Assembly (NCBI GenBank): GCA_023129715.1
Contig: JAGMBO010000044.1
Location: forward strand, 62,001 to 126,000
Direction of reading: 5' to 3'
Source of the DNA: Candidatus Eiseniibacteriota bacterium
GTDB lineage: Bacteria; Eisenbacteria; RBG-16-71-46; CAIMUX01; WJJG01
Length of the DNA: 64,000 nucleotides
The translations under genes were made by a program, and so were the position numbers. Shown here piece after piece: positions 1,209 to 14,603 of the stretch. Position 1 is the first letter of the stretch, and the number at the start of each line of letters is the position of its first letter. A model generated the notes under the pieces. The model was not told the DNA's origin. It was given only the letters and a program-made list of their open reading frames with translations, and did not search any database.

Positions 1209-1299
1209 GAGCGGGCCCGCTCGCCGCCCCGAAGGTCCGGCGGTGAGGGGGGGAGGGTGGGCCACGAGGTCGGAAGTTCATCATCGAGATGGGAGCGCC

Positions 1300-2796
1300 A
1301 TGCATCCGAGTCGACATCCCCGTTTCGCGCTGCGGTTCCTGGGTTGCCGGGCCAACCAGGAGGAGTGTGAGGCGCTGCGCTCGCAGCTCTTGACCGCGGG
1401 CGCCGAGGAGGTCGAGGCTCTGGATGCCGCCGACTGGGTGATCGTCAATACCTGTGCCGTGACCCGCTCGGCCCAGGCCCAGTCCCGCCAAGTGGTGCGC
1501 CGGGCCGGGCGCGCCCGCGGTGAGCGGGCCGCGGTGCTCGTCACCGGGTGCGGCGTGCAACTCGATCCGCAGGAATTCGCGGGCCTGCCCGGGGTCCGTT
1601 GGGTGGTCGGCAACGCGGAGAAGGCGCGCATTCCTGCCCTCTTGCTCTCAGCGGGGACACCCGCCGGCGCTCCGGCCGGGGTCGCGCACTGCCGGGGGGC
1701 GCGCGAGGTCCGCCGGGAACCGTTTGAGGAGCGGGGGGCGCACGTCTTCCATGGCGACGATCCGACCCTGCCCGGCTTCCTCGTGCTCGGGGCGGTCGTG
1801 CCGCACACGCGCGCCCGCGCGCTGCTGAAGGTCCAGGACGGGTGCTCCGGTTCATGCACCTACTGCATCGTGGCGGCGCTGCGCGGCCGTCCCCGCTCCC
1901 GCCCGCTGACCGAGGTAGTGCAGGAGACCGAGCGGCTGGCCGGGGCCGGGTATCACGAGGTCGTCCTCACCGGCATCAACTTGGGGCTCTACGGCCGGGA
2001 CCTGTCGGAGCCGGGCGGGGAAAAGGGCGCCGGTCTGGCCCGCCTGCTGCACGCATTGGAGCGCTTTGCCGGCCGGTTGCGTGTGCGGCTCAGCTCGCTC
2101 GAGCCGATGGCTTTCTCCGGGGCGCTGATCGAGGCGATCGCTGCCTCTCCGGTCTGCTGTCCGCACTTCCATGTTCCGGTGCAGTCGGGGGATGAGCAGT
2201 TGCTCCGGCGCATGGGGCGCCCGTACGGGCGCCGCGAGATTGAACGGATCGTCGCGGCCCTCGGTCGCTGTCAAACGCGATTCGGCCTCGGGATCGATGT
2301 GATCGCCGGATTCCCGGGCGAGACGGAGGCGTCGTTTGCCGCAACGCTGAGCTGGATCGAGGAGCTGCCGGTGACCTACCTGCATGCCTTCGGCTACTCG
2401 GAGCGGCCGGGCACCCCGGCTGCGGACTTCTCGGAGCGGGTGGCGCCGATCGAGCGGAAAGCGCGTGTCCGGCGCCTGCGCGAACTGGATGCCCGCCTGC
2501 GGCTGCGCTTTCAGGAGCGGCTCGCCGGAACGCGGTGCGAGCTGATCGTGGAACGCTCTTCGGGGGCGGCGTTCGGGGGCATCTCCGGCGAGTATGTGCG
2601 CATGCAGGGGCCCGGCCCCGGAGCGCCCCCCGGTGAACGGCTGACGGTGACCGCCGGTGGCGCGCTGCGCCCGGGGCTGCAGAGCTGCCGGCCGGTCGTC
2701 CCGGCTGCCCGCAGCGACTGCCCCGGAGTGCAGGAAGTGCCCGGGCGGCGCCTGGGGGGGCGCTGCGTCGGGCGACGGCGGGGTGACGGGGAATGA
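1300..2796 (+). CDS. mtaB: MtaB-type tRNA (t6A37) methylthiotransferase
   Basis: A 498-aa radical-SAM methylthiotransferase that adds a methylthio group to N6-threonylcarbamoyladenosine-37 of tRNA. The N-terminal UPF0004 domain supplies three cluster cysteines in FLGCRANQEE, VNTCAV and VTGCG. The radical-SAM core carries the CX3CX2C motif CSGSCTYC, and the C-terminus has a TRAM-like segment. The LGCRxNQ signature and lack of the MiaB YGCQMN signature favour MtaB over MiaB or RimO. The ORF track extends upstream to 1243, but the ATG at 1300 has GGGAG just before it and gives the family-typical start. Its stop overlaps the miaB start by 4 bp (ATGA). It probably depends on the same iron-sulfur supply as its neighbour. 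Confidence 0.88.
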   Translation: MHPSRHPRFALRFLGCRANQEECEALRSQLLTAGAEEVEALDAADWVIVNTCAVTRSAQAQSRQVVRRAGRARGERAAVLVTGCGVQLDPQEFAGLPGVRWVVGNAEKARIPALLLSAGTPAGAPAGVAHCRGAREVRREPFEERGAHVFHGDDPTLPGFLVLGAVVPHTRARALLKVQDGCSGSCTYCIVAALRGRPRSRPLTEVVQETERLAGAGYHEVVLTGINLGLYGRDLSEPGGEKGAGLARLLHALERFAGRLRVRLSSLEPMAFSGALIEAIAASPVCCPHFHVPVQSGDEQLLRRMGRPYGRREIERIVAALGRCQTRFGLGIDVIAGFPGETEASFAATLSWIEELPVTYLHAFGYSERPGTPAADFSERVAPIERKARVRRLRELDARLRLRFQERLAGTRCELIVERSSGAAFGGISGEYVRMQGPGPGAPPGERLTVTAGGALRPGLQSCRPVVPAARSDCPGVQEVPGRRLGGRCVGRRRGDGE

Positions 2797-4115
2797 CGAG
2801 GCGCTACCACCTCGAGGTCTACGGCTGCCAGATGAACGTGGCCGATGGCGAGCTGATCGCGGGTCTGCTCGAGCGGGAGGGGTGGCGGCGAACGGCAGAG
2901 GCGACCGAGGCCGACCTGATCGTGGTCAACACCTGTGCGGTTCGCGAGCGGGCTGCCGAGCGGGTGATCGGCCGCATCCAGAGCTTGCGGTCCCTGAAAC
3001 GGAAGCGGCCCGAGCTACGGATCGCCCTGGTCGGATGCCTGGCTCGTTACGGGGGCGAGGATCTCGCCGCGCGGCTGCCCGAGGTCGATCTCTTCCTCGG
3101 ACCCGACGCCTACCGGCAATTGCCGCACCTCCTGCGCGGCGACGAACGCGGGCCGGCCTTTGCCCTCCAGTCCGATCGCGGCGAGACCTACGAGGGGCTG
3201 GCGCCCGCGCGCGGGGCAGGGGTCAACGCCTGGATCAGCATCATGCGCGGCTGCGACCGCATGTGCACCTACTGCATGGTCCCCTTCGCCCGGGGCCGCG
3301 AACACAGTCTGCCCGCCGAGGCGGTGCTGACCGCCGCGCGCGAGGCGGTGGCGGAAGGGCATCCCGCCCTGACCCTGCTGGGCCAGACAGTGACCTCCTA
3401 CCGTGACGGCGAGCGTGACTTCGCCTGGCTCCTGGAGCAACTGGCCGGCCTCCCCGGGGTTCGACGCATCCGGTTTCTCTCGCCCCATCCGGCCGACTTC
3501 ACGGCGCGGCTGCTGGCGGTCATCGCGGCGCACCCGCAAGTCTGCCGTCACTTCCACCTCCCGCTCCAGTCGGGATCGGATGGCATCCTTGCCGCAATGC
3601 GCCGGGGCTACACCCGGGAGGCCTACCTCGCGCTGGTCGCGGATGCCCGCCGTCTCCTGCCGGGGATCGCGATCACGACCGATTTGATCGTCGGCTTTCC
3701 CGGAGAGACGGAGCGCGACTTCGAGGAGACGCTGGAGGTGATGGGCGCGGTCGAGTTCGATCAGGCCTTCATGTTCGCTTATTCCCCCCGACCGCGAACC
3801 TATGCCGCGCGCAAGCTGGCCGACGACGTACCCGCAGCGCTCAAGCGCGCCCGCCTGGAGAAGATGATCGCCCTGCAGGAACAGCACTCCCGAGGCGCCT
3901 ACACCCGTCTCATCGGCCGTATCGTCGAGGTGATGATCGAGGGGCCGGCCCGCACCCCCCCGGGGCATCTCTTCGGGCGCAGCGACGGGTTCAAGGACGT
4001 GATCGTCGCCGACTGCGAGCCGGCGCCGCGGGTGGGAGAAGTCGTCCGGGTGGTGGTTACGGGGGCGAGTTCCCACACCCTGCTCGGGCGGGGAGTCGGT
4101 CGGGTCGCGGATTGA
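2793..4115 (+). CDS. miaB: MiaB tRNA-2-methylthio-N6-dimethylallyladenosine synthase
   Basis: A 440-aa radical-SAM enzyme that converts i6A37 to ms2i6A37 in tRNAs reading UNN codons. The MiaB signature YGCQMNVADGE is at the N-terminus, with VNTCAVRERA and VGCLARYGG supplying the other auxiliary-cluster cysteines. The radical-SAM motif is CDRMCTYCMVPFARG, and the MiaB-typical GFPGETERDFEET and a C-terminal TRAM domain follow. It overlaps mtaB by 4 bp, so the two methylthiotransferases are translationally coupled. The length is normal for the family. No miaA (isopentenyl transferase) is in the window. Confidence 0.95.
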   Translation: MTRRYHLEVYGCQMNVADGELIAGLLEREGWRRTAEATEADLIVVNTCAVRERAAERVIGRIQSLRSLKRKRPELRIALVGCLARYGGEDLAARLPEVDLFLGPDAYRQLPHLLRGDERGPAFALQSDRGETYEGLAPARGAGVNAWISIMRGCDRMCTYCMVPFARGREHSLPAEAVLTAAREAVAEGHPALTLLGQTVTSYRDGERDFAWLLEQLAGLPGVRRIRFLSPHPADFTARLLAVIAAHPQVCRHFHLPLQSGSDGILAAMRRGYTREAYLALVADARRLLPGIAITTDLIVGFPGETERDFEETLEVMGAVEFDQAFMFAYSPRPRTYAARKLADDVPAALKRARLEKMIALQEQHSRGAYTRLIGRIVEVMIEGPARTPPGHLFGRSDGFKDVIVADCEPAPRVGEVVRVVVTGASSHTLLGRGVGRVAD

Positions 4116-4151: not shown

Positions 4152-4181
4152 TTGACAGCGCCATGAGGCGCCACATAGCAT
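4152..4181 (+). promoter_or_regulatory. sigma-70-type promoter for the hscB operon
   Basis: TTGACA, an 18-bp spacer and TAGCAT end 39 bp upstream of the hscB ATG. The spacer holds a short dyad (GGCGCC region: GCGCC-ATGA-GGCGC), which could serve as an operator. Confidence 0.6.
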
Positions 4182-4220: not shown

Positions 4221-4898
4221 ATGAAGTGCTGGAACTGCCAAAACGCCTTGGACGAGGTCATTATCTGTGGCCGCTGCGGCATGCCGCAGATGGTCGGATC
4301 GTTCAATCCATTCGGTATTTTGAACATACCGCCCCGGCTGCATTGGGATGAGGGGGGGGTCCGTACCGCCTACGAGCGGCTTGCCTTGCGCTGCCACCCC
4401 GATCTCTTCCGCGCCCACCGCGACGAGCGGGTCCTCTCGGCGGCCAGCTCGGCCATGCGGGCGATCAATGACGCCTTCCGCGAGATCCGTGAGCCCGTCC
4501 GGCGTCTGAGATACGTCCTGGCGGCAGTCGGTCAGACGCAGGGGGCGACGCGCACCGTGCCCGCCAGCTTGCAGGATTCGGTCCAGATCATCGAGCGGGT
4601 TCTGACGACGGTCGATGAGGCCCGCAAGGCGGGCGACCGCGTGGCTTGGGAGGGCGAGCAGGACCATCTGGCTTCCCTGCTGGTGAAAATCGAGAAGGCC
4701 CGCGAGCGCACGGCCGAGACGATGCGGGCGCTGGTGTCCGAATGGGACGGCGGTGTGGAGAGCGCGAACAACGACTGGCCCGACATGTCCGAGGATTGGA
4801 TGAACCGGGCGATGACCTGGGCGGGGGAGCGCGAGTACCTCGACTCGATGATCAACCGTGTCGAGGAGGCGGGCAGGCCTCCGGAGGAGAGCGAGTAG
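4221..4898 (+). CDS. hscB: HscB-like J-domain co-chaperone with N-terminal zinc finger
   Basis: A 225-aa HscB/Hsc20-type J protein. Residues 3-19 form a CxxC-x9-CxxC zinc-binding knot (C3, C6, C16, C19), as in eukaryotic HSC20 and many non-proteobacterial HscB proteins. The J domain follows, with the invariant HPD at 59-61 (RCHPDLF), and then a helical C-terminal domain that in the family binds the scaffold protein IscU. The next gene, starting directly after the stop, encodes an Hsp70, the expected partner. No iscU, iscS or ferredoxin gene is nearby, so a role in iron-sulfur cluster transfer is inferred from family, not from context. ATG start preceded by a sigma-70-like promoter. Confidence 0.82.
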   Translation: MKCWNCQNALDEVIICGRCGMPQMVGSFNPFGILNIPPRLHWDEGGVRTAYERLALRCHPDLFRAHRDERVLSAASSAMRAINDAFREIREPVRRLRYVLAAVGQTQGATRTVPASLQDSVQIIERVLTTVDEARKAGDRVAWEGEQDHLASLLVKIEKARERTAETMRALVSEWDGGVESANNDWPDMSEDWMNRAMTWAGEREYLDSMINRVEEAGRPPEESE

Positions 4899-6719
4899 GT
4901 GGCACAGCTGGGCCAGAAAAGCTCGGATGAGACCTTTGTCGCGGTCGATTTCGGCACGTCGGCCAGCCGGATCGCCTATTCCCGCGGGGAGGGCCATGCC
5001 CTGGTGGCCGAGCTGAACGGCGAGACCGAGATTCCCTCGGTGCTGACCCTCTCGCCCGAAGGCGGCATGCTCGCCGGGGTCGATGCCCGCAACCACCAGG
5101 CGATCTTTCCCTCCGAGACGCTGATCGGTCTGAAGTCGCTATTCAGCGCCGATCCCGAGGAGTTGCGGGGTCGGGGGCACCTTTTTCCCCAGAAGATCGA
5201 CAGCAGCAGTGATCAGTTCCTGCGCCTGGAGATCGGCGGGCGCCCGCGCACGCCGCTGGAGCTGATCGCGTTGTACTTGCTCCATCTGCGGCAGACCGCC
5301 GAGGTCGGGATGAACCGGGTGGTCGAGTCCGCGGTCTTCACTGTCCCTGTCTCCTTTACGCCTCTGGAGCGTCAGGCCTTCCGGCTGGCGGCGCGGATGG
5401 CGGGATTCCAACGGGTGCGGCTGCTCGACGAGCCCGTGGCCGTTGCCCTGGCGGCCATCTCGCGTGGTGTGCGCGGCCGGCTCGCCGTGGCGAGCTGGGG
5501 AGCGGGGTATTTCGGCGCCACGGTCGTCGAGGCCCAGCAAGACATGGTTCAGGTGCTCGCGAGCGTGGGCAGCTCGCGTCTCGGTGGCGCCCGGATCGAC
5601 GATGCCCTGGCTCAGGACTTCCTCGAGCGCGTGCGCGCCGCGGGGGGCGAGGGGTTCGCGCACGAGGCGACCGTCGCGCGTCACCTGCTCGAGGCGGCGC
5701 GGCATGCCAAACAGGAGATCGCCGCCCGCGGCAAGGCGGTTCTTCAGCTGCGGTCGGGCAAGGAGAAGAAGCCGGTGCGGCACACCTATCAGGCCGGCGA
5801 TCTCAACCAGTGGCTCGATCCGCTGGCGACGAAGGCCGCCGGCCTCTGCCGCGGGTTGCTGCAAGAGCTCTCGCTCGGCTCGGGCGACGTCGACATGCTG
5901 CTGCTCGCCGGCGGCATGGTCCAGATAGAGGCGGCCGCGGCGTCGTTGCGAGAAGTCTTCGGCCGCGATCCCGAGCCGGGGTACGGTTCCTTGGAGACGG
6001 CGGTCACGGGGGCCCTCGTGCGGGCTCGCTTCCTCGAGCGGGAACTCGCCGAACCCCTGGTGCTCGATGCCATGCCGATGGCGCTCGGCATCGAGGGCCA
6101 GACGGGCCACATCAACACCCTGCAGGCCCGCACCGAACGGATTCCGGCCAGCAAGGTCGAGCTCTTCACGACCTATCTCGAGAAGCAGACCGAGGTCGCC
6201 ATCCAGCTCTACGGGCATCGCGGCCAGCAGTGGGAACGGTTGGCGGCGGCGGAGATCGCCAAGATCCCGCCGATGAAGGGCAATCAGCCCAAGATCGAAG
6301 TGACGCTGACGTTCGATGAGGATGGGGTGCTCAATGCCTCCGCGCGGGAGATGAGCAAGAGCAAGCCCCTGGCCGTCGAGCTGCGCCCGCCTCACGGAAT
6401 GACGGGCAACGAGCTGCGCAGCATCGAAGAGGAACTGCCCCCGCATGCGGAAGAGGATTTTTCCGAGCGGCTACGCGAAGAGCTGCGTGTTCGTGGGCAG
6501 TTGCTGCTGGGAACTCTGGGAGTGGTGGCGAGCCGGCATGCGAGTGTGATGACGCGTGACGAGAAACACATCATCGTCAGCAAGACACGTGACTTCGAAG
6601 AAGTGCTCGAGGGGGGTGACATTGATGAGATGCGCAGTTGCTCACGCGAGTTGGCCGAAGCCGCCCAGCCGGTGATGCAACGGGTGCTGGACAAGAGCCT
6701 CGAGACCCTCCTGCGCTAG
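4899..6719 (+). CDS. HscA-like Hsp70 with degenerate ATPase motifs
   Basis: A 606-aa Hsp70 close in length to HscA (about 616 aa). GTG start with GGAGGAG about 10 nt upstream, directly after the hscB stop. The phosphate-1 loop is VAVDFGTSAS (residues 14-23), lysine 79 sits where the catalytic lysine is expected, and DEPVAVALA (177-185) keeps the glutamate. The phosphate-2 motif, normally DLGGGTFD, reads SWGAGYFG (199-206), so the Mg/ATP aspartate is Ser and the phosphorylatable threonine is Tyr. The substrate-binding beta domain (LDAMPMALGIEG onward) and a short helical lid are present. It is likely the HscB partner, but ATP hydrolysis may be absent or very slow. A divergent DnaK paralogue is the alternative reading. 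Confidence 0.85.
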   Translation: MAQLGQKSSDETFVAVDFGTSASRIAYSRGEGHALVAELNGETEIPSVLTLSPEGGMLAGVDARNHQAIFPSETLIGLKSLFSADPEELRGRGHLFPQKIDSSSDQFLRLEIGGRPRTPLELIALYLLHLRQTAEVGMNRVVESAVFTVPVSFTPLERQAFRLAARMAGFQRVRLLDEPVAVALAAISRGVRGRLAVASWGAGYFGATVVEAQQDMVQVLASVGSSRLGGARIDDALAQDFLERVRAAGGEGFAHEATVARHLLEAARHAKQEIAARGKAVLQLRSGKEKKPVRHTYQAGDLNQWLDPLATKAAGLCRGLLQELSLGSGDVDMLLLAGGMVQIEAAAASLREVFGRDPEPGYGSLETAVTGALVRARFLERELAEPLVLDAMPMALGIEGQTGHINTLQARTERIPASKVELFTTYLEKQTEVAIQLYGHRGQQWERLAAAEIAKIPPMKGNQPKIEVTLTFDEDGVLNASAREMSKSKPLAVELRPPHGMTGNELRSIEEELPPHAEEDFSERLREELRVRGQLLLGTLGVVASRHASVMTRDEKHIIVSKTRDFEEVLEGGDIDEMRSCSRELAEAAQPVMQRVLDKSLETLLR

Positions 6720-6733
6720 CCGCAAGGTGGCCC

Positions 6734-7792
6734 GTGACCATCGAATCGCTCAGAATGCCGGGACGCCTCATCGAGTTCTGTGAACAGGCACGTGCCAGAA
6801 TCGCAGCCGCCGAACGGATCCTCCTGGCCGCGCACGTCTTCCCCGAGCCGGATGCGATCGGATCCGAGGCGGCGTTGGCCCGACACCTCCTGCAACAGGG
6901 GCGCCAGGTCTTCGTCTGCAACCCATCGCCGGTGCTCGATGTCTATCGCTTCCTCACCGATCTCTCGGGACTGCCTCCCGAGCATTGGGTCGAGGGGAGC
7001 GATCGGGTTCCGGAGCATGACCTGATCATCCTGCTCGATGTCAGTGACTGGGACTACATGGCCTCGCTCGGCAAGGTGCTCCGGCGGTCTCCGGCGCCGA
7101 AGATCCTCTTCGATCACCATCAGAGCAGCGCGCCTGCGGGCACCCTGGCGCTGATCGATCCCGACGCGAGCGCAACCGGCGAGGTGCTCTTTCGCTACTT
7201 CCTGGCGACGGGGGCGCCGGTCGACCGTGAGATGGCCCAGGCGCTCTACGCCTCGATTCTCTTCGACACCGGCAGCTTCCGTTTCCGCAATGCGCGCGAC
7301 GAGACGCTGCTGATCGCCGCCGAGCTGATCCGCCAAGGGGCGAGCCATCGCGAGACGGTCGCCAAGCTCTTCGAGAACGAGTCGTTTCCCCGCGTCGAGC
7401 TGCTCACCGCGGCGCTGGCGCGACTGGTGAGCGACGCGGACGGACGGATTGCCTGGACGTATGTCACCGAGGAGATGTTCCGGCGCACGGGAACGACCGC
7501 CGGCGACGCCGACGGCATCATCGATCACTTGATGACCATTCGCGGGGTCCAAATCGGCGTGCTGTTTCGCGAGCTTCCCGGGGGCGGCGTCAAAGTCACC
7601 TTCCGCTCCAAGGGCAAGCCGAACGTCGGCCGGCTGGCCGGGGCCTTGGGGGGCGGTGGTCGCCCGACCGCGGCGGGCGTGACTCTGCCCGGATCGCTGC
7701 GGGAGGCGAGCAATCGGGTCGTGCCGGCGGTGCGTTCCCTGGTGGGGACGGCCGTGCGGCCGGTGGAGGAGTGCGATGTCAGTGATTCCTGA
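6734..7792 (+). CDS. nrnA: DHH/DHHA1 phosphoesterase, NrnA-like oligoribonuclease / pAp phosphatase
   Basis: A 352-aa DHH-family phosphoesterase that in NrnA relatives degrades nanoRNA and dephosphorylates pAp. The metal-site motifs are HVFPEPDAIGS, LLDVSDWDY, DHHQSS (the DHH box) and LYASILFDTGSFRF. The DHHA1 domain ends with GGGGRPTAAG where GGGGH-x-x-AAG is usual. I chose the GTG at 6734 because AAGGTGG lies 5-6 nt upstream; an ATG at 6755 (MPGRLIEF) is the alternative. The track ORF from 6638 would overlap hsp70 by 80 bp and lacks support. It overlaps folE by 17 bp, consistent with one operon from hscB to folE. Confidence 0.82.
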   Translation: MTIESLRMPGRLIEFCEQARARIAAAERILLAAHVFPEPDAIGSEAALARHLLQQGRQVFVCNPSPVLDVYRFLTDLSGLPPEHWVEGSDRVPEHDLIILLDVSDWDYMASLGKVLRRSPAPKILFDHHQSSAPAGTLALIDPDASATGEVLFRYFLATGAPVDREMAQALYASILFDTGSFRFRNARDETLLIAAELIRQGASHRETVAKLFENESFPRVELLTAALARLVSDADGRIAWTYVTEEMFRRTGTTAGDADGIIDHLMTIRGVQIGVLFRELPGGGVKVTFRSKGKPNVGRLAGALGGGGRPTAAGVTLPGSLREASNRVVPAVRSLVGTAVRPVEECDVSDS

Positions 7793-8339
7793 ACTCGTCA
7801 AAGGGCTGTTGAAGGAATGTGGTGAAGATCCTGATCGCCCCGGCCTGCAGAAGACGCCGGACCGGGTTACCGCGGCGTGGAAGAAGCTGACGGCCGGGTA
7901 CCAACAGTCGTTCGACGAGGTCCTCGCGGGGGCGATCTTCACCGAACGCTATGACCAGATGATCATGGTCAAGGACATCGACTTCTACAGCCTGTGTGAG
8001 CATCATCTGTTGCCCTTCTTCGGCAAGGTCCACGTCGCCTACATTCCGGACGGCCGCATCATCGGGTTGAGCAAGATTCCCCGGGTGGTGGATTTCTTCG
8101 CCCGGCGCCTCCAACTCCAGGAACGGATGACGACACAGATTGCGGAAGGCCTTGCCGAGGCATTGCAGCCCCGGGGCGTGGGGGTCGTCGTCGAGGCCTT
8201 TCACCTGTGTGTCGCCATGCGGGGCGTACAGAAGCAGAATGCCTACATGACCACCAGTGCCATGCACGGGGATTTCCGGGATGATCGGGCGACGCGGGGT
8301 GAGTTTCTCGGTCTGCTCCGCCGCCGCCACGCGCGCTGA
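7776..8339 (+). CDS. folE: GTP cyclohydrolase I
   Basis: A 187-aa GTP cyclohydrolase I, which converts GTP to 7,8-dihydroneopterin triphosphate at the head of folate (or queuosine/biopterin) synthesis. The zinc ligands are visible: C74 and H77 in YSLCEHHLLPFFG and C145 in FHLCVAMRGVQKQ. GLSKIPRVVDFFARR and the TTSAMHGDF end are also family-typical. The ATG overlaps the end of nrnA by 17 bp. It is the last gene of the operon and is followed by a 16-bp perfect hairpin. Length is normal. No other folate gene is nearby. Confidence 0.95.
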   Translation: MSVIPELVKGLLKECGEDPDRPGLQKTPDRVTAAWKKLTAGYQQSFDEVLAGAIFTERYDQMIMVKDIDFYSLCEHHLLPFFGKVHVAYIPDGRIIGLSKIPRVVDFFARRLQLQERMTTQIAEGLAEALQPRGVGVVVEAFHLCVAMRGVQKQNAYMTTSAMHGDFRDDRATRGEFLGLLRRRHAR

Positions 8340-8536: not shown

Positions 8537-9607
8537 CTAGATCTCATCGAAGAAGTAGGCGCGCAGCGGCTGCAGGCGTTCCACATAGTCGTCCGGGTAC
8601 AAATACCACGCGGCGATCGCCACCGATGAGAGCAGCGAGTTTCCATCCTGCGGCGTGAAGGTGAAGCCGACGATCTCATGGTCGCCATGAACGTGCAGCG
8701 TCGGCGTGGAGACGACTGTCTGGCTGAGCAGGCGCCCGAAGTGCCCCTGGTCGCGCCCGAAGGAGAAGATCGCGTTGCTCGAACGCTTCTCGGTCAGTGC
8801 GATGCGCTGGTTCTCGCGCAGGCGGGCAATGACCTGAGGCAGCGTGATCTTCTCGCGCAGCCTGATGTTGAACCACATGGCATGCATGTACTGGGTGTTG
8901 AGCTTCATCGCCGAGCTGAAGATCGGTAGCTCGTATCCGAGCGTATTGAAGAGATGATAGGCATCGCGCGCGTGATGCGTGCCGAATTCGCTGTCGTCGT
9001 GCTTGCCCGCCTGGGGCGCCGGGGCGAACTTGCTGTCCTGGCTGATGTCGCTGGCGCGCCGGATTAGGACGAAGCGTCCCTCGACGAGATTGGCGGGATC
9101 CTTGTCCTGCAGCGCCAGGGTATCGATGACCACGGCGAGATTGTGGGTGTTGCAGGAGACGACCTGGACGTAGTTGTCCTTGTCCCGCAGCAGCGCCTCG
9201 TCGTTGATTCCCCGGGCATAGGGTTTGCCGAACCCGAACTCACTGCCCTGCGCGACGAACCCGAGCGTGTTCTCTTCGAAGCGCGCGTAGTTCTCTTCCT
9301 TGTTCTTGTTCCCGGCGGGGGTGCAGTCGATGACCACATCGGCCAGCCCGAGGGCCTCTTCGTAGCCGTAGGTCACCTTCATCCCCAGCTCTTCGAACTC
9401 CCCGATCATCTCCTGATCGGCACATAGATGGGCTCCTCGTCGAATCAGCGCCTTGACCTTGGGCCGATCATAGGTCAGGGCCTGCTTCTTGTTGAAGCTG
9501 ATCGTCTCGAGGCCCAGTTCCTTGCGGAACGTGCAGAGCAGTCCGAGCAACGGCTCGCCGATCGTCCCGGTGCCGACGACGTGGACGTGTTTACCGGTCT
9601 TTGCCAT
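8537..9607 (-). CDS. type II (archaeal-type) glyceraldehyde-3-phosphate dehydrogenase-like protein
   Basis: A 356-aa dehydrogenase. The N-terminal Rossmann motif is VHVVGTGTIGEPLL, and the catalytic cysteine is probably C152 in VQVVSCNTHNL, matching the VVSCNT motif of archaeal phosphorylating GAPDH. DCTPAGNKNKEENY resembles the archaeal VDGAPKKIGKQN region. Bacterial type I GAPDH carries ASCTTN instead. The ATG at 9607 has GGAGGGAAGG about 10 nt upstream; the track start at 9649 is a GTG without support. A promoter with TTGACT-17-TACATT sits upstream. The gene is monocistronic and convergent with folE. It would act in glycolysis or gluconeogenesis; NADP preference cannot be read. A related reductase is possible. 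Confidence 0.7.
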   Translation of the reverse strand: MAKTGKHVHVVGTGTIGEPLLGLLCTFRKELGLETISFNKKQALTYDRPKVKALIRRGAHLCADQEMIGEFEELGMKVTYGYEEALGLADVVIDCTPAGNKNKEENYARFEENTLGFVAQGSEFGFGKPYARGINDEALLRDKDNYVQVVSCNTHNLAVVIDTLALQDKDPANLVEGRFVLIRRASDISQDSKFAPAPQAGKHDDSEFGTHHARDAYHLFNTLGYELPIFSSAMKLNTQYMHAMWFNIRLREKITLPQVIARLRENQRIALTEKRSSNAIFSFGRDQGHFGRLLSQTVVSTPTLHVHGDHEIVGFTFTPQDGNSLLSSVAIAAWYLYPDDYVERLQPLRAYFFDEI

Positions 9608-9658
9608 AGCGGCCTTCCCTCCATTCCACATTGTTGACGGTGTCGCCACTCCCCCGGG

Positions 9659-9687: not shown

Positions 9688-9816
9688 GATGGGCCCGGCG
9701 TGCAGATGGGCCCCGCGTGCTTGCACTTCGCCGCCTCAGGCGGCAGAATCGCCTGGCTGCGCGACCCCTCGCGGGGAGGGGTTCGGCGTGGCGCGGGGCT
9801 CGATGGGGAGGGCACT

Positions 9817-11262
9817 ATGTTGCCGGCGGATCAGGGCAGCGGGTTTGCAACATCACTTCCAGAGGCAACCGAGACCGGGACGATGCCGGAGGTCCTGGGG
9901 GCGCGGCGGGAGGTGCCCCTGCTCGACGGCCGCCGGGTGGCGCAGGTCTTTCTCGACAACGCGGCCAGCACCAAGCCCCTGCGCCGGGTCAGCGAGTACG
10001 TTCGGGCGATGGAGGATTACTACTCGAACATCCATCGCGGGACCGGATACGACTCGGTCTTCTGCACGCAGCAGTACGAAGAGGCCCGCGAGATCGTGGC
10101 CGCCTTTGTCGGCGGAGATCCGGTACGCGATGTCGCCATTCCGGTGCGCAACGCGACCGAAGGGCTCAACCTCCTCGCCTCGACCTTCGAGTTCCGTCCC
10201 GCCGACATCGTCTTGACGACGCTACTGGAGCACCACTCGAATGATTTGCCCTGGCGCGGCAAGGCCCGCGTCGAGTATGTCGGCCTGCGTCCCGACACGA
10301 CCCTCGACCTGGCCGAATACGAGGCGCGCCTGCAGGCGCTGCGCGGGCGCGTGCGGATCGTCGCGGTCACCGGGGCCTCGAACGTCACCGGTGAGGTGCT
10401 TCCGGTGCACAGGCTGGCGGAAATCGCGCATCGCAATGGGGCGCTGATCGTCATCGACGCGGCCCAACTCGCGCCCCACCGCGGAATCGACATGCGCCCG
10501 CATGGCCGCCCCGATCATCTCGACTTCGTCGTCTTCAGCGCCCACAAGATGAACTCTCCGTATGGTGAGGGGGCGATCATCGGACCCCAGAGCCACTTCA
10601 ATGCCGCCGCCCCCTATCTGCAGGGGGGAGGCACCGTCTACCACGTCGGTCTCGACCATGTCATTTGGGCCGATGCCCCCGATCGCCAGGAGGCGGGGAC
10701 CCCCAATGTGCTCGGCCTGCTCGCCCTCGCCGCGGCGATCCGCATCTATCAACAGGTGGGATGGGACGCGATCGTAGCCCACGAGCGCGAGCTGACCCGC
10801 CGCCTGCTGCGGGGCATGGCGGCCATGCCGCAGGTCGAGATCCTCGGTCCCGCCAATGCGGACGATCTCGGCGATCGTCTCGGGGTGGTGGCCTTCTCGG
10901 TCGTCGGCTTGCACTATCAGTTCGTCGCCGCCGTGCTTTCCTATGAATTCGGCATCGCTGTGCGCGCCGGTTGCTTCTGCGCGCATCCCCTGATCAAGCA
11001 TCTGCTCAAGGTCACGCGCGATCGGGAGCGGGCGATCGAGGGAGAGGTGCAGAGCGGCGATCGCCGGGAGGTCCCGGGAGCGGTGCGCGCCAGCATTGGG
11101 CTGCACAACACGCCGGCCGATATCGACCGCTTCCTCGAGGCGCTGGGGGCCATTGCCGCCCGGCGCTGGCGAGGCCGCTACGTGCAGGAGACGCGGACGG
11201 GGGCGTTCCACCCCGAGGACTACACCTTCGATTTCTCCACCGCCCCGCAGCTACCCGACTGA
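9817..11262 (+). CDS. class V aminotransferase, cysteine-desulfurase-like
   Basis: A 481-aa PLP enzyme of the SufS/NifS-like class V family. The N-terminal VFLDNAASTKP is the family opening, FSAHKMNSPYGEG holds the PLP lysine, and RAGCFCAHP aligns with the active-site-cysteine loop of group II desulfurases (RxGxxCAxP). The ATG at 9817 follows GGGGAGGG at proper spacing; the track ORF adds 39 poorly conserved residues. A loop of about 20 charged residues (TRDRERAIEGEVQSGDRREV) lies between the cysteine loop and ASIGLHNT. There is no sufBCDU or isc operon nearby, so the sulfur acceptor is unknown. Selenocysteine lyase or another class V enzyme of similar architecture cannot be excluded. The gene is convergent with trmJ. 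Confidence 0.78.
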   Translation: MLPADQGSGFATSLPEATETGTMPEVLGARREVPLLDGRRVAQVFLDNAASTKPLRRVSEYVRAMEDYYSNIHRGTGYDSVFCTQQYEEAREIVAAFVGGDPVRDVAIPVRNATEGLNLLASTFEFRPADIVLTTLLEHHSNDLPWRGKARVEYVGLRPDTTLDLAEYEARLQALRGRVRIVAVTGASNVTGEVLPVHRLAEIAHRNGALIVIDAAQLAPHRGIDMRPHGRPDHLDFVVFSAHKMNSPYGEGAIIGPQSHFNAAAPYLQGGGTVYHVGLDHVIWADAPDRQEAGTPNVLGLLALAAAIRIYQQVGWDAIVAHERELTRRLLRGMAAMPQVEILGPANADDLGDRLGVVAFSVVGLHYQFVAAVLSYEFGIAVRAGCFCAHPLIKHLLKVTRDRERAIEGEVQSGDRREVPGAVRASIGLHNTPADIDRFLEALGAIAARRWRGRYVQETRTGAFHPEDYTFDFSTAPQLPD

Positions 11263-11279: not shown

Positions 11280-12089
11280 TTATTCGAGCCCCAGCTGCTG
11301 CTCGAGGCGGGTGAGCAGGCCTAGCAGCCACCGGGCCTGTTTCCCCGAGAGCGGTCCGCTGCGCAACGGCGCGAGATAGGCCTCCGGCGGATGACGCTTG
11401 AGCACGCGGCTCGGATAGGCGAGTGCGGCGAGAACCGCCTCCGTGCGGGCCAAGATCTCCCGGCGCTGTTGCGAGGTTGCCGGCCGCGGCGGGGCGCCGG
11501 CATCGGACACCGGCCGCGGGGGGCCGTCGGCGGTGGGGCGACTGGGTCCTGGGGCGGCCGGCTCGCGCGGCAGTCCGGAAGCCTGTGCGCGGGCCGGTTC
11601 GGCGATCGACCGGCGGCACAGTTCGTAGGCCATCAGGGTCACGCTGTGCGCCAAATTCAGTGGGCCGCCGCTGGTCGGAAAGCGGATCAGCCGGTGGCAG
11701 CGATCGAGCCACGCGCGATCGAGTCCGTTGCGTTCGGGGCCGAACAGGATCAGCAGGCGTCCCGGGCGGTGGTGGCGATACTCGGCCACGGCGGCTGCGG
11801 GCGAGATCAGCTTGCGGTGGCGGCCGACGCGCGCGCTGGTTCCCCAGACCTCATCGAAGCCGGCGAGCATCTCCGGGACTTCAGCGGCGGTGACGATTTC
11901 TGCAGCGCGCAGGGTTTCCCGGCCCCAACGCACCGCCAGGGCCGCGTCGCGATGTCCCGGACGCGCGGCGGGGGCGATCAGGCGCAGGTCGCGGAAGCCG
12001 AAAGCGGTCAGAGTTCGGGCGGCGGCGCCGGCATTGCCCGGTTCGGTCGGGTAGACGAGCGCGAAGGTGACCGGGGGAAGCGCAGTCAT
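11280..12089 (-). CDS. trmJ: TrmJ-like tRNA 2'-O-methyltransferase (SPOUT)
   Basis: A 269-aa SPOUT methyltransferase likely to methylate the ribose 2'-O of C/U32 in tRNA anticodon loops. Motifs: VYPTEPGNAGAAARTLTAFG (motif 1), ILFGPERNGL (motif 2) and GGPLNLAHSVTLMAYEL (motif 3, the AdoMet knot). A proline/arginine-rich linker of about 50 residues leads to a helical C-terminal domain of the kind that dimerises TrmJ. The track ORF to 12926 is an artefact. The real ATG at 12089 overlaps the upstream radical-SAM gene's stop by 4 bp, and the N-terminus MTALPPVTFALVYPTEPGN is family-typical. Confidence 0.85.
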   Translation of the reverse strand: MTALPPVTFALVYPTEPGNAGAAARTLTAFGFRDLRLIAPAARPGHRDAALAVRWGRETLRAAEIVTAAEVPEMLAGFDEVWGTSARVGRHRKLISPAAAVAEYRHHRPGRLLILFGPERNGLDRAWLDRCHRLIRFPTSGGPLNLAHSVTLMAYELCRRSIAEPARAQASGLPREPAAPGPSRPTADGPPRPVSDAGAPPRPATSQQRREILARTEAVLAALAYPSRVLKRHPPEAYLAPLRSGPLSGKQARWLLGLLTRLEQQLGLE

Positions 12090-13084
12090 TGTTGCGACTC
12101 CTTGGTCTTGAGCACACCCATCCGCGGTCCGTGCGTGGGCCGGCACGCGGTGCCCTGGCGGCTGCCCCGCTTGCGCAGGATCCGGCAGATCTCGGCGCGC
12201 ACGATCGTCTCGCGGACGCCCCACCGGGGCGCCAGCAACATCCTCCGCGGAGCCACCGCGCACAGGCGCTCGACGACCACCCGCGCATCGAGTTGTTCGA
12301 GGAAGTCGGCGGCGAGCTGCGCATAGGTGCGCCATGAGGGGAGGCTCCACAACGCCGGATGACGCAGGGATGCGAGTGCACTGCCGCGGAGCACCTGGAG
12401 GTGGTGGAGCTTGACCGCGTCGATGCCTGCCGCGGAGAGGCGCCGGGCGCCGGCGATCTGGGAGGGGGCCGGCTCCCACGGCGTTCCGAGGATCATGTGG
12501 GCGCCGACGTGCAGGCCGCGGGCCTTGAGAAGGGCGATCGCCCGGCGAGCCTGCGCCCAGGTGTGCCCACGGCGCATTGCCCGCAAGGTGGCATCGTCGG
12601 TCGACTGCACCCCGAGCTCCACCTGGAGATAGGTCTCGCGCGCAGTGGCGGCGAGCAGGTCGAGCACCACGTCGGGCAGGGCGTCGGGGCGGGTGCCGAC
12701 GACGATGCCCAGCGTGCCGGGACAACGGCGCGCCTCGGCGAGCGCGGCGGCGAGCCGCTCGGGGGGGCCATGGGTGCTGGTGTAGGGTTGGAGGTAGACG
12801 AGGTAGCCGGTCGCGGCGGGATAGCGCCGGCGCAGGCCAGGTAGGGCACGGCGCACCTGTTCGCTCAGGGCAAGCTTCGGGCGGCTCGCGGGGGGGCGGA
12901 ACCCATCGATACTGCAGAAGAGACACCCGGCGGTCGCGCGCGTGCCGTCACGCACGGGGCAAGAGAACCCTGCATCGACGGCGACGCGGAAGACCTTGCC
13001 CCCGAAGCGCCGGCGGGCCACCGAGCGGGGGTTGGTGTAGGGAGGCCCGGGAGAGGTCCTGTCCCCGTCGACCAGCCCCCGCAT
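12086..13084 (-). CDS. TIGR01212-family radical SAM protein (YhcC/YtqA-like)
   Basis: A 332-aa radical-SAM protein. The YhcC-type cluster motif is CPVRDGTRATAGCLFC (CX11CX2C), preceded by FGGKVFRVAVDAGFSC. YLVYLQPYTSTHGP, GVQSTDDATLRAMRRGHTW and LHHLQVLRGSAL are also family hallmarks. The biochemical function of this family is not established. The ATG at 13084 lies 8 bp past the htrA stop, so htrA-yhcC-trmJ form one compact minus-strand cluster. An upstream ATG at 13129 would overlap htrA by 38 bp and adds non-conserved sequence. Confidence 0.85.
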   Translation of the reverse strand: MRGLVDGDRTSPGPPYTNPRSVARRRFGGKVFRVAVDAGFSCPVRDGTRATAGCLFCSIDGFRPPASRPKLALSEQVRRALPGLRRRYPAATGYLVYLQPYTSTHGPPERLAAALAEARRCPGTLGIVVGTRPDALPDVVLDLLAATARETYLQVELGVQSTDDATLRAMRRGHTWAQARRAIALLKARGLHVGAHMILGTPWEPAPSQIAGARRLSAAGIDAVKLHHLQVLRGSALASLRHPALWSLPSWRTYAQLAADFLEQLDARVVVERLCAVAPRRMLLAPRWGVRETIVRAEICRILRKRGSRQGTACRPTHGPRMGVLKTKESQQ

Positions 13085-13091
13085 GGTCGGG

Positions 13092-14603
13092 CTACTCGGG
13101 AATGCGCAGGGCGACGAAGCGGCGCGCATCCCGGGTGATCACCGTCAGCAGCAACACGTCCCCTTTCTCGAGTCGGGCCGTCTGTTCACGCACGTCGGCG
13201 ACACTCATGACCGGCTTGCGCCCCGCCTCGACGATCACATCGCCGAGCCGCAGGCCTTCCTGGGCGGCCACCGAGCCATTGCGGACATCGGTGACCACCA
13301 CGCCCTCGAGTCCGGGGTCGAGCTCCAGGCGGTCGCGCCACTCGTCGTTGAGGAAGGCGACATCGAAGCCGAGGTCTTCGAACACATCGTCGATGGCGCC
13401 GGCGAGCGGAGCCTCGTCGGATTCGAGCTCTTCGAGCACGACCTCGAGACTGCGGGCTTTCCCGTCGCGCAATACGGAGACCGAGATCTTGGTGCCGGGG
13501 CGGGTCTGGGCCACGCGCATCCGCAGGTCGTCGACATCCTCCACGCGCTTGCTGTCGATCGCGACAATGATGTCCCCATCCTTGATGCCCGCCTTGTCGG
13601 CCGGGCCATCTTCGACGACCTGCTGGACGAGGGCTCCGTAGCGGATGTCGGTATCGAAGGCCGCGCGCAGGGCGTCGGTCAGGTCGCCGATGTAGATGCC
13701 GAGCCACCCGCGCACGACATGTCCCTCATCGAGAATGCTCTGCATCACGGAGCGGGCCAAGCCGATCGGCACGGCGAACCCAACCCCCTGGTAGCCGCCC
13801 GTCCGGCTGGCGATGGCGGTATTGATCCCGACGACCTCGCAATGGAGATTGACCAGCGGCCCGCCGCTGTTGCCCCGGTTGATCGCCGCGTCGGTCTGGA
13901 TGAAATCCTCGTAGTCGGTCAGGCCGATCCGCGAACGTCCCTTGGCGCTGATGATGCCGGCGGTCACCGTCTCGCGCAGCCTCTCGCCGAAGGGCGTTCC
14001 CAGCGCCAGGACCCATTCGCCGACCCGCATCGCGTCGCTGTCGCCCAGCTCGAGATAGGGCAGCGGCTCGTCGCTCTCGACCTGGATGACAGCCACGTCG
14101 GTCTTCGGGTCGGTGCCGATGATTTCGGCATCCAGCTGCCGGCCGTCGCTGAGGCGCACGAGGATGTTCTCGGCTTCGGCGACGACATGATTGGCCGTGA
14201 GGATCCGGCCGTCGGCCGAGACGATGAAGCCCGAGCCGAGCCCCCACTGGCGATGCTCGCGCGGTGTGCCGCGCCGAGGGCCGAAAAAGCGCTGGAAGAA
14301 CTCGGGCATCTGATCGCTGTGGAATGACCTACTCGAGACGACGCGCTCGCTGGTGATCGTCACCACCGCCGGCCGCGCCCGCTCGGCGACGGCGGCAAAG
14401 GCGTCACCCAGCGCGGCGGCCACGTCCAGCGGATCTTCGGCCGGCCCGGCCGTCGCCTGGGCAGCCAGCGGGTGGGCCGGTCCCCGGGAGGAGAGTCCCC
14501 ACCAGCCGGCTGCGCCGAGGAGCATCGCCGCCATCAAGAAGACTGCCGGCATCAAGGGCGAGAACCGGTTGGCCCTTGCACGCGCGTCCTTCGTTCGATC
14601 CAT
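13092..14603 (-). CDS. DegP/HtrA-family periplasmic serine protease with two PDZ domains
   Basis: A 503-aa Do-like protease. An N-terminal membrane anchor or signal segment (about 18-34) is followed by a trypsin-like domain with H139 (TANHV), D169 (KTDVAVIQV) and S246 (NRGNSGGPL). Two PDZ domains follow (about 290-380 and 410-500), the second short. It probably degrades or refolds misfolded envelope proteins, a natural role next to the secretome-rich region. GGAGGAGG is 5 nt upstream of the ATG. First gene of the htrA-yhcC-trmJ cluster. The C-terminal domain ends at the stop without an additional sorting tail. Confidence 0.93.
   Translation of the reverse strand: MDRTKDARARANRFSPLMPAVFLMAAMLLGAAGWWGLSSRGPAHPLAAQATAGPAEDPLDVAAALGDAFAAVAERARPAVVTITSERVVSSRSFHSDQMPEFFQRFFGPRRGTPREHRQWGLGSGFIVSADGRILTANHVVAEAENILVRLSDGRQLDAEIIGTDPKTDVAVIQVESDEPLPYLELGDSDAMRVGEWVLALGTPFGERLRETVTAGIISAKGRSRIGLTDYEDFIQTDAAINRGNSGGPLVNLHCEVVGINTAIASRTGGYQGVGFAVPIGLARSVMQSILDEGHVVRGWLGIYIGDLTDALRAAFDTDIRYGALVQQVVEDGPADKAGIKDGDIIVAIDSKRVEDVDDLRMRVAQTRPGTKISVSVLRDGKARSLEVVLEELESDEAPLAGAIDDVFEDLGFDVAFLNDEWRDRLELDPGLEGVVVTDVRNGSVAAQEGLRLGDVIVEAGRKPVMSVADVREQTARLEKGDVLLLTVITRDARRFVALRIPE

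Follow-up and report, generated by a model that had tools for sequence, protein, structure and literature searches.

Textbook Hsp70 action depends on ATP hydrolysis that is triggered by a J protein. Hsp110/Sse1, a divergent Hsp70, functions without relying on a normal hydrolysis cycle. Among the bacterial Hsp70s, HscA and HscC were described in a review as keeping most of the residues for ATP binding, hydrolysis and allostery (PMC8215388). In DnaK, whose E. coli residue numbers are used here unless stated otherwise, D8, E171 and D194 keep the Mg-bound waters in place, T11 and K70 serve as gamma-phosphate sensors (PMC12406271), and J binding acts by bringing T199 to the gamma-phosphate (PMC13012618). 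The substitution T199A lowers hydrolysis by at least 95% and leaves ATP binding (PMC9691929) and allostery (PMC12406271) in place. In the eukaryotic RAC, Ssz1 binds ATP without hydrolysing it and is obligately paired with the J protein Zuo1, which stimulates another Hsp70 (PMC7083937, PMC9197937). No report of a bacterial equivalent of Ssz1-Zuo1 was found in the open-access papers covered by a limited search.

The window, a stretch of 64,000 nucleotides from a Candidatus Eiseniibacteriota genome, encodes a divergent Hsp70 directly behind an HscB-type J protein (Table 1). The Hsp70 reading frame is complete, starts with GTG and has no internal stop; the Pfam HSP70 model covers its product end to end (248 bits), and the nucleotide-binding domain (NBD, approximately residues 12-384) is followed by a linker, the beta part of the substrate-binding domain (SBD-beta) and an alpha lid. 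An earlier note on this DNA had claimed that the phosphate-2 loop reads SWGAGYFG instead of DLGGGTFD, with the metal-site Asp and the catalytic Thr both replaced. Alignment with E. coli DnaK and HscA confirmed both statements, the changes being D194S, L195W, G197A, T199Y and D201G. The note had also raised the possibility that nearby side chains supply the missing groups. No stand-in Asp or Thr was found near the loop in this alignment, and the segment between E178 and E211 (own numbering) holds no Asp or Glu, so neighbouring residues do not replace the catalytic Asp or Thr.

Table 1 Features of the chaperone locus. Positions are those of the window, except for the last row, which lists loci of other genomes.
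Feature	Position	Strand	Basis or remark
MtaB-type tRNA methylthiotransferase, upstream neighbour	1243..2796	+	profile; synteny
MiaB-type tRNA methylthiotransferase, conserved upstream neighbour	2793..4115	+	profile; synteny
Possible sigma-70-type promoter TTGACA-18-TAGCAT, just 5' of the J gene	4152..4181	+	weak: 1 found, 0.5 expected by chance
HscB-type J-domain protein, 225 aa	4221..4898	+	HscB models, HscB/HSC20 structures; adjacency in 5/5 loci
N-terminal zinc ribbon CWNC...CGRC of the J protein, as in human HSC20	4227..4277	+	alignment to 3bvo; four Cys invariant in 5/5
HPD motif of the J-domain, intact	4395..4403	+	sequence; invariant in 5/5
GGAGGAG, RBS-like, within the end of the J gene	4883..4889	+	sequence
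Divergent HscA-like Hsp70, 606 aa	4899..6719	+	Pfam and NCBIfam profiles, alignment, model
Phosphate-1 loop DFGTSAS (canonical DLGTTNS)	4947..4967	+	Asp8, Thr11 kept; Thr12/Asn13 changed
Lys equivalent to DnaK K70 (Arg in two orthologs)	5133..5135	+	alignment
Glu equivalent to DnaK E171, kept (Asp in one ortholog)	5430..5432	+	alignment
Phosphate-2 loop SWGAGYFG (canonical DLGGGTFD)	5493..5516	+	alignment
Interdomain linker LVLD (DnaK LLLD), Asp393 kept	6057..6068	+	alignment
DHH/DHHA1 (NrnA-like) phosphoesterase, conserved downstream neighbour	6734..7792	+	profile; synteny
GTP cyclohydrolase I (FolE), conserved downstream neighbour	7776..8339	+	profiles; synteny
Divergent type II (archaeal-type) GAPDH relative	8537-9649	-	far below NCBIfam cut-offs
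SufS-like cysteine desulfurase-family protein	9700-11262	+	291 bits, below SufS cut-off of 475; synteny with chaperone locus
MnmL/YtqA-type radical SAM tRNA-modification enzyme	12086-13129	-	third tRNA-modifying radical SAM gene within 12 kb
Small predicted membrane protein of other genomes	L147 3911-4579; L148 2497-3123; L041 9470-10111; L040 4132-4797	L147 -; L148 -	no Pfam match where tested

Four other genera of the family each contributed one ortholog, 42-52% identical to the window Hsp70. Their phosphate-2 loops read CWGAGHFG, CWGAGYLS, TWGAGYLS and CWGGEHFS; across all five proteins Trp195 is invariant, position 194 is Ser, Cys or Thr, position 199 Tyr or His, and position 201 Gly or Ser. 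The canonical D[LF]GGGT[FY]D is present in all 31 aligned HscA and DnaK proteins and in each of 65 other Hsp70 reading frames screened, some of which represent one gene from overlapping loci. A profile scan of 385 genomes separated the five orthologs (1010-1063 bits) from everything else (at most about 360), and a single-protein scan of GTDB contigs returned ordinary DnaK only. Since the same three residues are replaced in five genera around an invariant Trp, the altered loop is a conserved state and not decay.

Beyond D194, T199 and D201, the positions changed in all five proteins are T12, N13, D148 (Pro), Y145, R71 (Ser), Q378 (Arg) and N170 (Asp or Glu). The loss of ATPase residues is not complete: kept at the ATP site are D8, G10, T11 (Ser in G004), K70 (Arg in two), E171 (Asp in one), K270 (Arg in one) and the adenine-site GG (G341-342). 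Residues of docking, allostery and the substrate-binding domain are also kept (P143, F146, R151, R167, L392, D393, P419, V436, L454 and D481). Thus the J-docking, linker, proline-switch and peptide-binding residues persist while the Mg-positioning and catalytic side chains are replaced in every ortholog. Invariant positions make up 29% of SBD-beta and 23% of the NBD in the five orthologs; SBD-beta is thus no less conserved than the NBD, and the protein probably still binds clients.

From this combination of kept and lost residues we strongly infer that effective ATP hydrolysis, J-triggered hydrolysis included, has been lost, while the protein can likely still bind ATP and reach the docked state. 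The nucleotide-independent clamping proposed in the earlier note fits less well, since the protein keeps most of its ATP contacts, both gamma-phosphate sensors (Thr11, Lys/Arg70), the J-docking surface and many allosteric residues; an ATP-binding but non-hydrolysing Hsp70 is preferred. An AlphaFold2 model built on a 30-sequence alignment shows a full Hsp70 (pLDDT 85.5, pTM 0.84) and supersedes a poor five-sequence model (pLDDT 65.8). Its best fold matches are ATP-bound, J-bound or restrained DnaK structures (TM 0.77-0.78, against 0.53 for ADP-state 2kho). The run contained no ligand and the conformation chosen does not bear on the nucleotide state, so that the DnaK-ATP-like model is consistent with an ATP-like docked state and not decisive.

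The J gene adjoins the Hsp70 gene in all five genomes. The partner with intact HPD that the earlier note had pointed out is HscB-type, and its pairing with an Hsp70 of this kind is conserved in five genera. No nucleotide separates the TAG stop codon of the J gene (4896-4898) from the GTG with which the Hsp70 gene starts, which together with the GGAGGAG suggests translational coupling. The two genes lie in one frame at 4896-4901 and are also continuous, with one stop between them, in two orthologs (L007, L009); a read-through J-Hsp70 fusion is conceivable. The top profile matches of the J protein are HscB models, to which it is similar overall and in its HPD, and among structures it matches bacterial HscB and human HSC20 best, with an alignment to HSC20 that extends through the CWNC zinc finger. 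As in human HSC20/HSCB, the CWxC zinc finger precedes the J-domain; in contrast to HSC20, its C-terminal domain is not recognised as HSCB_C and its partner is a putative pseudo-ATPase. HSCB_C (PF07743) had no match in the window genome or the rest of the phylum and did match the E. coli control, so that the C-terminus is either too diverged for this model or different. A profile of the J proteins found no ortholog elsewhere in the phylum and only distant HscBs outside it. J proteins of similar type, several with a CWxC finger, were found in other phyla within ordinary isc operons (iscS-iscU-iscA-hscB-hscA) with intact HscA.

Several lines of comparison point to HscA as the origin of the window Hsp70. 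HscA models outscore DnaK models in all five orthologs, and at 10 of the 11 sites that distinguish HscA from DnaK the proteins follow HscA, the GrpE-signature deletion among them (DnaK residues 286-289 are deleted in all five, and 290-295 are not DnaK-like). The 606 residues fall within the 600-620 expected of HscA, with about 12 residues before the first strand and no charged C-terminal tail, the protein ending in LETLLR. It shares with HscA the adjoining HscB-type J protein and the Fe-S gene slot described below. It differs from HscA in its ATP binding and hydrolysis residues, of which D194, T199, D201, T12, N13 and D148 are changed in all five, in its position outside an isc operon, in the altered IscU hot spots of its J protein, and in its score of 284 bits against the NCBIfam HscA cut-off of 708.55. 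DnaK itself is a poor assignment, as DLGGGTFD, the GrpE signature, the acidic tail and an above-cut-off score are all absent; so is HscC, which has 550-580 residues and a large NBD deletion at DnaK 76-101 that is absent here. In a phylogenetic tree the clade falls outside the DnaK clade (support 100/99), on a long stem branch, and an AU test did not reject placing it on the DnaK side of HscA (p 0.147). Given the long branch and this test, HscA ancestry is likely, not proven. A canonical dnaK, whose existence the earlier note had proposed to check, is encoded separately. In the window genome its two parts lie at the ends of two contigs (L001, L003) and the middle third is missing, probably through an assembly gap, so its own phosphate-2 is not visible; in the sister genera G001 and G002 it is full length and carries DLGGGTFD.

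The order MtaB-MiaB-J-Hsp70-DHH-FolE, followed by the GAPDH-like and SufS-like genes, is kept across the family as far as the contigs reach. The GAPDH-like gene, whose product had no Pfam match, is yet kept in the family loci and in a sister family. In sister families of the same taxonomic order (loci L146-L150), the flanks MiaB and DHH enclose IscS and in some cases also IscA and a YgfZ-like protein, and neither a J protein nor an Hsp70; these loci form an apparent Fe-S and tRNA-methylthiolation gene cluster. The J-Hsp70 pair therefore occupies an Fe-S slot next to methylthiotransferase genes. Methylthiotransferases use up an auxiliary [4Fe-4S] cluster, and in E. coli they depend on YgfZ, which supports MiaB activity (PMC10002905). 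Plausibly, these loci descend from one isc locus, of which iscS-iscA-ygfZ survived in the sister families and hscBA in the family of the pair. IscR-IscS-IscU of the window genome are encoded elsewhere. As evidence of an Fe-S function the neighbourhood is no more than suggestive; FolE, DHH and GAPDH-like genes lie in the same run. A search for a defence role of the locus gave no match. In several genomes, the window not among them, a small predicted membrane protein gene lies divergently oriented between MiaB and the Fe-S or chaperone genes.

The explanation that we favour, at roughly even confidence, is a lineage-specific chaperone pair derived from HscB/HscA, whose Hsp70 is now a pseudo-ATPase that serves as a clamp or adaptor in the maturation of Fe-S or methylthiolation enzymes. 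The role of the Hsp70 would probably be that of a switch or clamp that runs without the usual ATPase engine. The two proteins would be co-produced, as the abutting genes and synteny indicate. The Hsp70 would bind ATP and could take the ATP-like docked conformation, with negligible hydrolysis. The J-domain may dock at R167, D393 and P419 without a catalytic outcome or may act on DnaK, and the J protein would be a stable partner or targeting subunit instead of an ATPase trigger. By analogy with Ssz1 (PMC7083937), the substrate-binding domain might hold an extended client segment with low affinity and fast exchange, and release would proceed without hydrolysis, by nucleotide exchange or displacement. 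Most speculatively, the clients would be Fe-S maturation factors or the neighbouring methylthiotransferases, and probably no longer, or not only, IscU; a link to MiaB/MtaB is a guess from gene position. Somewhat short of even confidence, we tentatively suggest that the pair is the first bacterial J-protein/pseudo-Hsp70 machine, HscA-derived, ATP-binding and non-hydrolysing, lastingly joined to its J protein, serving methylthiotransferases or other Fe-S clients and convergent with Zuo1-Ssz1.

The earlier note had called a J protein beside such an Hsp70 paradoxical. The pairing is real, and the paradox is eased by Ssz1/Zuo1 (PMC7083937, PMC9197937), which is the closest precedent: an Hsp70 thought to bind and not hydrolyse ATP, with a J partner, beside a canonical Hsp70. 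The likeness is one of description, the bacterial complex being predicted only, and the window Hsp70 differs in keeping lid and linker and in having an HscB-type instead of a Zuotin-type partner. Hsp110/Sse1 resembles it as a divergent Hsp70 not relying on the normal cycle; the window protein has no long SBD insertions, a lower fold match to it (TM of about 0.67) and no sign of an exchange-factor role.

The main rival takes this precedent literally, with a stable heterodimer whose J-domain acts on canonical DnaK, in the way that Zuo1-Ssz1 acts on Ssb, and whose pseudo-Hsp70 is a scaffold that pre-binds the client and hands it over. We consider it possible and on the whole unlikely. Besides the described behaviour of Ssz1, a canonical DnaK does co-exist, and HPD is intact in all five J proteins though the adjoining Hsp70 has no catalytic Thr. 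However, the J protein has no evident tethering extension, the lid that Ssz1 lacks is retained, and the pseudo-Hsp70 has R167, D393 and P419 unchanged, as though a J-domain still docked on it.

Improbable, in our view, is a rebuilt active site in which the loop [SCT]-W-G-x-x-[YH]-x-[GS] provides new catalytic groups (Tyr/His 199, Cys/Ser/Thr 194) for slow or differently regulated hydrolysis. The restricted substitutions and the persistence of D8, K/R70 and E/D171 would agree with it, but loss of the Thr hydroxyl alone abolishes nearly all hydrolysis in DnaK, the loop also lacks the Mg-water Asp194 and Asp201, Lys70 and Glu171 themselves vary among the orthologs, and none of the five proteins has kept Asp148 or Tyr145.

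LPPVK, the motif of IscU that HscA recognises, is unchanged in IscU of the window genome and in each of the ten canonical isc loci read. As proof of an IscU client it was rejected, since it is also found in phylum members without the pair and is not kept in pair-bearing sister genomes (LPAVK in IscU of G002, locus L086; LPEAK in a NifU-type protein of G001). Among the HscB residues important for IscU binding (PMC3040723), L92 is kept, L96 is Gln and E100 is Arg in all five J proteins, and F153 is not conserved. With these changes and the LPAVK and LPEAK variants, classical delivery to IscU, and IscU as the sole client, is doubtful. A classical HscBA system for IscU that has merely given up fast hydrolysis is accordingly quite remote: the HscA-like signatures, the HscB-type partner, an IscS-IscU with LPPVK elsewhere in the genome and the Fe-S slot speak for it, against the changed hot spots, the inconstant LPPVK and a report that HscA-assisted cluster transfer depends on ATP hydrolysis (PMC9596805). 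A decaying gene or assembly artefact, for which the long stem branch and the fragmented metagenome assemblies might be cited, is hardly credible given full-length open frames and conserved synteny in five independent assemblies and the restricted substitutions around the invariant Trp.

The J-Hsp70 pair is real, conserved and unusual. Under the favoured reading of a non-hydrolysing clamp or adaptor, the window Hsp70 would be a natural separation-of-function mutant, in which the J partner, the J-docking surface and the peptide site were kept over five genera and the catalytic centre was discarded. With it one can test directly which parts of Hsp70 work require hydrolysis, what a J-domain does where no hydrolysis can follow, and whether an ATPase is needed for Fe-S chaperoning.
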